A stretch of DNA of 64,000 nt, taken from positions 1 through 64,000 of the forward strand of contig JAQSYP010000011.1 in NCBI GenBank assembly GCA_029256085.1, in the 5' to 3' direction. Below the pieces are notes generated by a model that saw nothing but the letters and a program-made list of their open reading frames with translations, was not told the origin of the DNA and did not search any database. Numbering within the stretch: position 1 is the stretch's first letter; each line of letters begins with the position of its first letter. Made by a program: the position numbers and the translations under genes. Source of the DNA: Caryophanales bacterium (GTDB lineage Bacteria; Bacillota; Bacilli; CAJFEE01). This document shows positions 3,033-64,000 of this stretch, one piece after another.

Positions 3033-3131
3033 CTATTTCTCGATAAAGGCAAAGCTAATGAAAATTAGTGACGCAAAACTAAAGGGGCTACGGTGCATTG
3101 CACTACGCCAGCCAGTTACCGAAGGATATAG
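3033..3131 (+). promoter_or_regulatory. Cyclic di-GMP-I (GEMM-I) riboswitch upstream of the Tad operon
   Basis: The class I c-di-GMP aptamer signature is present in order: GGCAAAGC, a short GAAA-capped hairpin at about 3052-3069, GACGCAAA at 3070-3077, a P3 stem region closing with CTACG, then GCCAGCCAGTTACCGA at 3108-3122. A closing stem P1 can form between 3033-3042 and 3120-3131. A strong terminator follows at 3200-3231, ahead of the first gene of the pilus operon. Known members bind c-di-GMP and control adhesion and motility genes. The direction of control is inferred rather than seen. Confidence 0.93.
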
Positions 3132-34280: not shown

Positions 34281-34303
34281 TCGAGACATTATCTGTATCG
34301 CGG

Positions 34304-34405
34304 CTTATCTCTCAGAATGAAAGTCATTCTGCTGGAATTGGCACCTTCCCATATAGGGGGTTGCCGGACGTCATAGGGCCAAGTCCCTCGGTCACTCTTG
34401 ATAAG
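34304..34405 (-). promoter_or_regulatory. SAM-I (S-box) riboswitch of the metNIQ operon
   Basis: On the minus strand the aptamer starts CTTATCAAGAG, continues with GGGACTTGGCCCTATGA, CCGGCAACC, AAGGTGCCAATTCC, and closes with GAGAGATAAG, which pairs with the start (P1). These are the conserved S-box blocks in order. SAM binding stabilises P1 and favours the terminator at 34251-34280, shutting off methionine uptake when SAM is high. Confidence 0.97.
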
Positions 34406-34434
34406 TTCAAATATAAAATTTAAATTTAATTAGT

Positions 34435-63186: not shown

Positions 63187-63334
63187 AAAAATTTTTACTG
63201 TATTAATTTTAAAAAGTAATTATCAAAAGTACTCATTGAATATTAATATTTTTTATGTGTTTTTATTTTAAATATCCTCTAAATTCCCTATATAAAAATT
63301 TCTTTGGCAGTATTATTATTAAGGTAAGAACTAA

Positions 63335-63428
63335 ACCAAGTGAAAAAGGCAAATCATTAGGAAACTATGAGACGCAAAGCCAAGGGCCTGCACCACAATT
63401 GTGGATGGTAGCCGGTTGCCACAAGGGT
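63335..63428 (+). promoter_or_regulatory. Cyclic di-GMP-I (GEMM-I) riboswitch upstream of the FN3 protein
   Basis: Aptamer blocks in order: GGCAAATC, a GAAA-capped hairpin (CATTAG-GAAA-CTATGA region), GACGCAAAGC at 63371-63380, the P3 hairpin CACCACAATTGTGG, then GGTAGCCGGTTGCC ending at 63420. P1 forms between ACC-AA-GTG (63335-63342) and CAC-AA-GGGT (63420-63428). It is the second class I c-di-GMP sensor in the window. Confidence 0.93.
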
Positions 63429-63475
63429 ACATAGCTAAAAAATCTATGAACCTTTGTTAAGGTTCTATTTTTTTT
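63423..63475 (+). terminator. Riboswitch expression platform: antiterminator and terminator
   Basis: The terminator is GAACCTT / AAGGTTC (63448-63465) with a TATTTTTTTT tail. An antiterminator can form between AAGGGTACATAG (63423-63434) and CTATGAACCTTT (63444-63455), which uses up both the 3' side of P1 and the 5' side of the terminator. A further hairpin GGTTCTA / TAGAACC (63461-63481) could also disrupt the terminator. Confidence 0.8.
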
Positions 63476-63514
63476 AGAACCCTTTTCACAATAAATTACG
63501 AAAGGGGAATTATA

Positions 63515-64000
63515 ATGAAGAAAATGCTCAGGAAAGTTCCGGTATTGTTAATTTCTATTTTATTAACATACCAAATACTGTTACCGGCAGTTAATGTTTA
63601 CGCAGCCTATACGGATAACAGTATATTGCCACCAAGTAATTTAACCCATCAATTTATTACTCCTGATGATGTTAAACTATCGTGGAGTTCTGTATTTGAT
63701 GCAAAGGGGTACAATATTTATTCAATTACTGAAGGGCAACTTAAACAAATTGCTACTACAACGAATACAAACTATACGTTTAATAACCTAGCAGAGGGTG
63801 ACTACACGTATGTTGTTTCGACGATTAGTAGTTTAGGTGAATCGGGACCCGGTGCGCCAATAACAATTACTGTCGATTATCCGATTATGGAAACACCTAC
63901 AAACCTATCTAGTCTCATAAAAAATGGGAATGATATAGTACTGTCTTGGGATGTTGTTACTTATGCTGATAGTTATAACATTTATTCAATTACTGAAGAT
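63515..64000 (+). CDS. Secreted fibronectin type III-repeat surface protein (partial)
   Basis: The 3' end lies beyond the window; 162 codons are visible. A signal peptide runs to about residue 31 (VPVLLISILLTYQILLPAVNVYA). Two FN3-like repeats follow: LPPSNLTHQFITPDDVKLSW...GYNIYSI...NNLAEGDYTYVVSTI, then TPTNLSSLIKNGNDIVLSW...SYNIYSITED, whose start copies the first. Such tandem FN3 modules are typical of surface or extracellular adhesins and polymer-binding proteins. The ribosome binding site is AAAGGGG. It lies directly under c-di-GMP riboswitch control. Confidence 0.85.
   Translation, partial: MKKMLRKVPVLLISILLTYQILLPAVNVYAAYTDNSILPPSNLTHQFITPDDVKLSWSSVFDAKGYNIYSITEGQLKQIATTTNTNYTFNNLAEGDYTYVVSTISSLGESGPGAPITITVDYPIMETPTNLSSLIKNGNDIVLSWDVVTYADSYNIYSITED

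Follow-up and report, generated by a model that had tools for sequence, protein, structure and literature searches.

In C. difficile, class I c-di-GMP riboswitches are described as uniformly OFF switches, including those of the flgB operon and of CD2797, which is annotated as an adhesion protein (PMC6366702, PMC8428550, PMC11477304). The exception is CD1990, a class I gene whose expression rises with c-di-GMP (Table 2, PMC8428550). Because of this increase, the C. difficile switches are better called mostly OFF than universally OFF. In B. thuringiensis, the Bc2 switch is turned ON by c-di-GMP and controls the wall-anchored collagen adhesion protein Cap (PMC4933901). Bc1, another B. thuringiensis switch, has a long expression platform with two terminators. 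Effects on both transcription and translation were proposed for this one leader, and its downstream genes were unresponsive to c-di-GMP (PMC11218506).

The locus described here lies at the 3' end of the window, the whole stretch of 64,000 nucleotides that was analysed (Table 1). Its best explanation, with a probability of about 0.72, is a transcription-OFF c-di-GMP-I riboswitch that silences a secreted surface protein of the motility phase. The aptamer match, the conserved expression platform, the pairing of switch and gene in orthologs and the gene order in relatives were all computed here. When c-di-GMP is scarce, the P1 3' strand would pair with the 5' arm of the terminator and form an antiterminator, which would allow read-through, synthesis of a 1707-amino acid protein and its Sec-dependent export. 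When c-di-GMP is abundant, bound ligand would keep the aptamer and P1 closed and weaken the antiterminator, so that the terminator would form and transcription would be switched OFF. The gene is proposed to stand alone, with a promoter and a riboswitch of its own, and to encode a conserved FN3/OmpL47 protein that is secreted in the motile state; in relatives it is often kept in the late flagellar cluster.

Table 1. Features of the leader and of the start of the downstream gene, with positions in the window
Feature	Position	Strand	Basis and remarks
CCTAT box, 5' of promoter	63287..63291	+	In 17/31 orthologous leaders vs 1.7 expected from shuffles
Likely -10 element TATTAT, two overlapping frames	63311..63319	+	Inferred
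c-di-GMP-I (GEMM-I) aptamer	63338..63423	+	RF01051, 67.8 bits, E 4e-11, model positions 1-87
P1 inner 5' strand GUG	63340..63342	+	Pairs with CAC 63420-63422; weak outer pairing 63335-63337/63426-63428
Antiterminator 5' strand, overlapping P1 3' strand	63421..63434	+	Folding and ortholog alignment
Antiterminator 3' strand, overlapping terminator 5' arm	63444..63457	+	Folding and ortholog alignment
Intrinsic terminator	63448..63475	+	7-bp stem 63448-63454/63459-63465, eight U 63468-63475
CCCUUUUCAC element	63480..63489	+	Complementary to aptamer 5' strand 63340-63349 and, over 8 bp, to Shine-Dalgarno; putative function
Shine-Dalgarno GAAAGGGG	63500..63507	+	Sequence
5' part of secreted FN3/OmpL47 protein gene	63515..64000	+	Frame ends at contig position 68638 (G000:C11:68638), past the window

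The aptamer was matched over its full length by cmscan of the window, at almost twice the curated threshold of 35 bits, in agreement with the preliminary description, which had called it complete. The GGC and CC columns are invariant across 31 aligned leaders, and from the Vc2 structure we take them to be the ligand-contacting G and C. The aptamer is presumed to bind c-di-GMP. It had also been counted as the second c-di-GMP-I switch, and the search of the whole 2.63 Mb genome (G000) raised the number to three. One of the others, at 3038-3123 (+) of the window, lies upstream of genes for a DUF192 protein and a type IV prepilin peptidase, and an OFF layout is predicted by folding. The third (G000:C7:66831-66917, L001) lies upstream of a secreted DUF5667 protein; in its predicted antiterminator, CCGAGG at the 3' end of the aptamer pairs with the terminator loop CUUCGG. 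The window also carries a SAM (S-box) riboswitch on the minus strand (34302-34407, 87.4 bits). That the genome has c-di-GMP signalling follows from 15 matches to GGDEF and 7 to EAL.

Upstream of the aptamer, TATTAT is the likely -10 element as judged by sequence, and its counterpart in orthologs, at a similar position, is mainly TATAAT or TATGAT. The -35 element of the window leader is weak. The CCTAT box lies mostly about 48-60 bases ahead of the aptamer stem in orthologous leaders, and in some of them it forms half of an AATAGG...CCTATT inverted repeat. It is a possible regulator site.

In the growing RNA, folding predicts the aptamer with P1 and then the antiterminator, which would appear ahead of the synthesis of the terminator 3' arm. 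Predicted folds gave -13.0 kcal/mol for the antiterminator and -8.3 for the terminator hairpin (63448-63465), and when the antiterminator 5' strand was shuffled 300 times, about 0.3% of the shuffles folded as well. The antiterminator had been placed earlier at 63423-63434/63444-63455; it is present and slightly longer (63421-63434/63444-63457), and the terminator was recovered exactly where it had been drawn. P1 had been considered mutually exclusive with these pairings, which holds only if P1 extends beyond its inner GUG/CAC pairs. When the 3-bp inner P1 alone was forced, P(terminator) of the window leader rose from 0.00 to 0.37, and the antiterminator was still favoured. Blocking of the P1 3' strand gives a P(terminator) of 0.94-1.00, varying with the extent of the block. 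The direction of the P1 effect on the terminator is clear in these models, while its size would be set by the extent of P1 and by the ligand, which folding programs omit. In addition, the terminator 3' arm (63461-63467) can alternatively pair with UAGAACC (63475-63481), with the U-tract as the loop (-8.4 kcal/mol). This pairing could keep the read-through RNA in a non-terminator form. The 3' arm can also pair with 63327-63332, provided that these bases are transcribed.

The pair of switch and gene recurs in 30 other leaders, which come from Bacilli and from two species of Clostridium. In a set of 61 related genomes, a single further class I leader precedes a gene for a homologous protein. A contig scan with the whole protein as query gave no matches, whereas a profile of its N-terminal part found orthologs. 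When 400 genomes of the class were searched with a profile of the FN3 units, 12 more proved to have an ortholog, and in 10 of these 12 a class I or I-GGC aptamer lies immediately ahead of the gene. Scanning of named genomes extended the set to Anoxybacillus, Peribacillus, Alkalihalobacillus, Fredinandcohnia, Cohnella, Paenibacillus and Tumebacillus, as well as to Mesobacillus, Halalkalibacter, Domibacillus, Paenisporosarcina, other Bacillus and the two Clostridium species. All named-genome orthologs with at least 47% identity have the aptamer, as scanned directly or through the other locus of the same genome. The riboswitch is directly upstream of every scanned ortholog except those of Brevibacillus dissolubilis, genome G127 and Neobacillus cucumis, where no remnant aptamer was detected at E <= 5. 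These three belong to one supported divergent clade, whose fourth member (G019) has the switch. In the tree, the Clostridium proteins are nested among those of the Bacilli, where they group with Tumebacillus at moderate support (91/94); this placement suggests that the unit was transferred between classes. In Paenibacillus sp. P25 (L219), the FN3 gene reads as several open reading frames despite a good riboswitch match and is probably frameshifted or a pseudogene. Mesobacillus subterraneus (L213:924-1258) and Bacillus sp. REN3 (L222:763-1111) each have a group I intron some 1.1-1.2 kb upstream of their riboswitch.

Alignment of the 31 leaders is good. It preserves the antiterminator pairs in 86.7% of cells, compared with at most 48.6% when the pairing is slid, and terminator and P1 pairs are kept in 94.3% and 88.4%, respectively. 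Covariation was considered as proof of the platform and proved weak: the leader sequence is so conserved that the antiterminator shows few compensatory changes. Of 29 terminator-bearing leaders, 27 fold a hairpin that opposes the terminator 5' arm, and 26 of these hairpins use at least three nucleotides of the P1 3' strand. Across the 29, the median P(terminator) moves from 0.23 in the free RNA to 0.98 when the P1 3' strand is blocked. As modelled, this layout is the standard OFF arrangement. An automatic OFF rule applied to 123 class I leaders called 46 of 63 OFF compared with 32.5 of 63 after shuffling; because the rule is therefore unspecific by itself, the ortholog set was used instead. 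The preliminary prediction that ligand binding favours termination is thus retained, since the same folding logic is conserved across the orthologous leaders. Taken as a model, the predicted sign, c-di-GMP = OFF, is well supported, and we infer the same sign in vivo.

A further layer of control, added to the transcriptional OFF switch rather than replacing it, is possible and should be regarded as tentative. After read-through, CCCUUUUCAC may capture the aptamer 5' strand, which would free the Shine-Dalgarno sequence and lock the aptamer open, and in ligand-bound RNA it may pair with the Shine-Dalgarno sequence instead; both pairings are suggestive only. The post-terminator stretch matched the complement of the aptamer 5' strand (GUGAAAARGG) better than shuffles did, at p <= 0.04, in 17 of 29 ortholog leaders, including that of the window, whereas control class I leaders showed the same complementarity at p <= 0.05 in just 3 of 20. 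Part of this complementarity may be a by-product, because the aptamer 5' strand resembles a Shine-Dalgarno sequence, and the related leaders are non-independent. In the window leader, the 8-bp hairpin with the Shine-Dalgarno sequence is present (p 0.00), but pairing of the Shine-Dalgarno sequence is not generally enriched (0.54 vs 0.46 in the null; p <= 0.05 in 3 of 27). Conserved sequestration as a general feature is unsupported by these values. Two Tumebacillus-family leaders lack both antiterminator and terminator, and their Shine-Dalgarno sequence is predicted to be paired at 0.06-0.07 in the free RNA vs 0.56-0.85 with the aptamer occupied. In these two leaders, capture of the aptamer 5' strand is the predicted route to free the ribosome site. 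The widest form of this idea is speculative: giant Sec-secreted FN3/OmpL47 proteins would form a family, new to science, that serves motile Bacilli and is silenced by c-di-GMP in two layers, namely the antiterminator/terminator switch and the capture of the aptamer 5' strand that frees the ribosome site and latches the message on, with the translational layer alone left in one Tumebacillus lineage.

The gene controlled by the proposed OFF switch encodes a complete protein of 1707 amino acids, which confirms the secreted FN3 protein noticed earlier. It has a Sec-type signal peptide, 13 FN3 units of about 89 amino acids each, four OmpL47-type domains and a conserved C-terminal part. The FN3 repeats had been described as near-identical, which is not the case: the units share 25-51% amino acid identity (mean 37%), and no DNA tandem array was found. 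Beyond position 64,000, where a sortase motif or further repeats had been considered, the additional FN3 units and the OmpL47-type domains were found; the protein ends in ...KTTLKVNK, with no LPXTG-type sorting signal, and a genome-wide search for the sortase family returned zero matches. A sortase-anchored MSCRAMM-type adhesin, such as Cap or CD2831, is ruled out by these two results. The Sec signal peptide argues against flagellar type III export as an axial part of the flagellum. In full-length alignment, eight orthologs are 46-54% identical to it and three divergent orthologs 32-35%, and the protein shares with the family the same type of FN3 array, the OmpL47-type repeats and the conserved C terminus.

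Flagellin was found in all 34 records (33 distinct genomes) of ortholog-bearing genomes searched. In 19 of 33 other genomes, the FN3 gene lies within about 12 kb of flagellin, where chance linkage is about 1.6% per genome; Anoxybacillus tepidamans is an example of a species with the gene in the flagellar cluster. The typical order on one strand is flgK-flgL-DUF6470-fliW-csrA-hag-[glycosyltransferases]-FN3-flaG-fliD-fliS. In both Fredinandcohnia genomes, the flagellin (G404:C33:172380-173065; G405:C5:473720-474404) gave a two-piece match split near residue 67, as if an intron or insertion interrupts it. In the source genome, the flagellar cluster is on contig C15 and the FN3 gene outside it, on contig C11; the genome contains two flagellin-family matches, so motility of the organism is likely. 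Because the switch-gene pair often sits inside the flagellar gene cluster, the protein is probably part of the swimming state rather than a biofilm adhesin. c-di-GMP would then silence the gene together with motility.

Under the OFF switch, the flagellar location could be incidental, reflecting a shared insertion place or an inherited neighbourhood of an unrelated secreted or matrix protein. Such a reading is unlikely, although some observations agree with it. Where checked, a strong terminator of its own ends the FN3 gene, and at several loci a separate sigma-D-like promoter serves flaG; the FN3 gene is therefore a separate transcription unit, and an operon with flaG-fliD-fliS is ruled out at these loci. 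Linkage to flagellin was also not seen in 14 of the 33 other genomes (most Tumebacillus, both Clostridium and several others, some on short contigs), nor in the source genome. Against it, the place of the gene inside the cluster varies (after hag, fliS, csrA or the glycosyltransferases), linkage by chance alone is very unlikely, and a motile-state protein is a fitting target for riboswitches of a class known to oppose motility. An ON-type adhesin switch, in which c-di-GMP promotes read-through and the surface protein is made in sessile cells, has a precedent in the class I switch Bc2, which acts as an ON switch for an adhesin (PMC4933901). Adhesive function is common among secreted FN3 proteins rich in repeats. 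Even so, this sign is improbable and is rejected for now, since the P1 3' strand lies in the antiterminator and not in the terminator 5' arm in the window and almost all ortholog leaders, neither sorting signal nor sortase was found, and the relatives place the gene in flagellar clusters.

The preliminary description had compared the gene with adhesins of the B. cereus group and had remarked that the opposite sign might be expected for an adhesin. The analogy is given up in view of the missing sorting signal, the flagellar neighbours in many relatives and the fact that Bc2-cap is ON and wall-anchored. For a protein without a sorting signal and with such neighbours, OFF is the expected sign. 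One giant secreted protein family thus carries the same predicted OFF switch across many genera, and more than half of the genomes examined keep its gene in the flagellar cluster. The family is a conserved target through which c-di-GMP riboswitches of Bacilli can be tested, and it points to a part of the swimming cell surface that is still undescribed. It is also a warning that switch-controlled repeat proteins are not all biofilm adhesins. With the Tumebacillus leaders that have lost the terminator, transcriptional and translational control by the same aptamer can be compared in natural sequences.

The switch class and the OFF mode are already known, whereas the conserved target family and its flagellar location are unreported in the literature searched, which lay outside most subscription journals and held no paper joining c-di-GMP-I switches with FN3 proteins in Bacillus or with flagellar clusters. 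The leader resembles C. difficile Cdi-1-3 (flgB operon) and Cdi-1-2 (CD2797) in having a class I aptamer, a terminator and an OFF response to c-di-GMP, which is predicted here. Cdi-1-3 governs the early flagellar operon itself, whereas the switch described here controls a single, separate gene for a giant secreted FN3 protein; the likeness to the annotated adhesion protein behind Cdi-1-2 is drawn from its description, not from sequence. Like Bc2-cap, the locus has a class I aptamer and a terminator ahead of a surface protein gene, but the predicted sign is opposite and the wall anchor of Cap is absent. It shares with Bc1 possible effects on transcription and translation in one leader; in contrast to the two terminators of Bc1, it has one terminator and a possible element that captures a strand of the aptamer.
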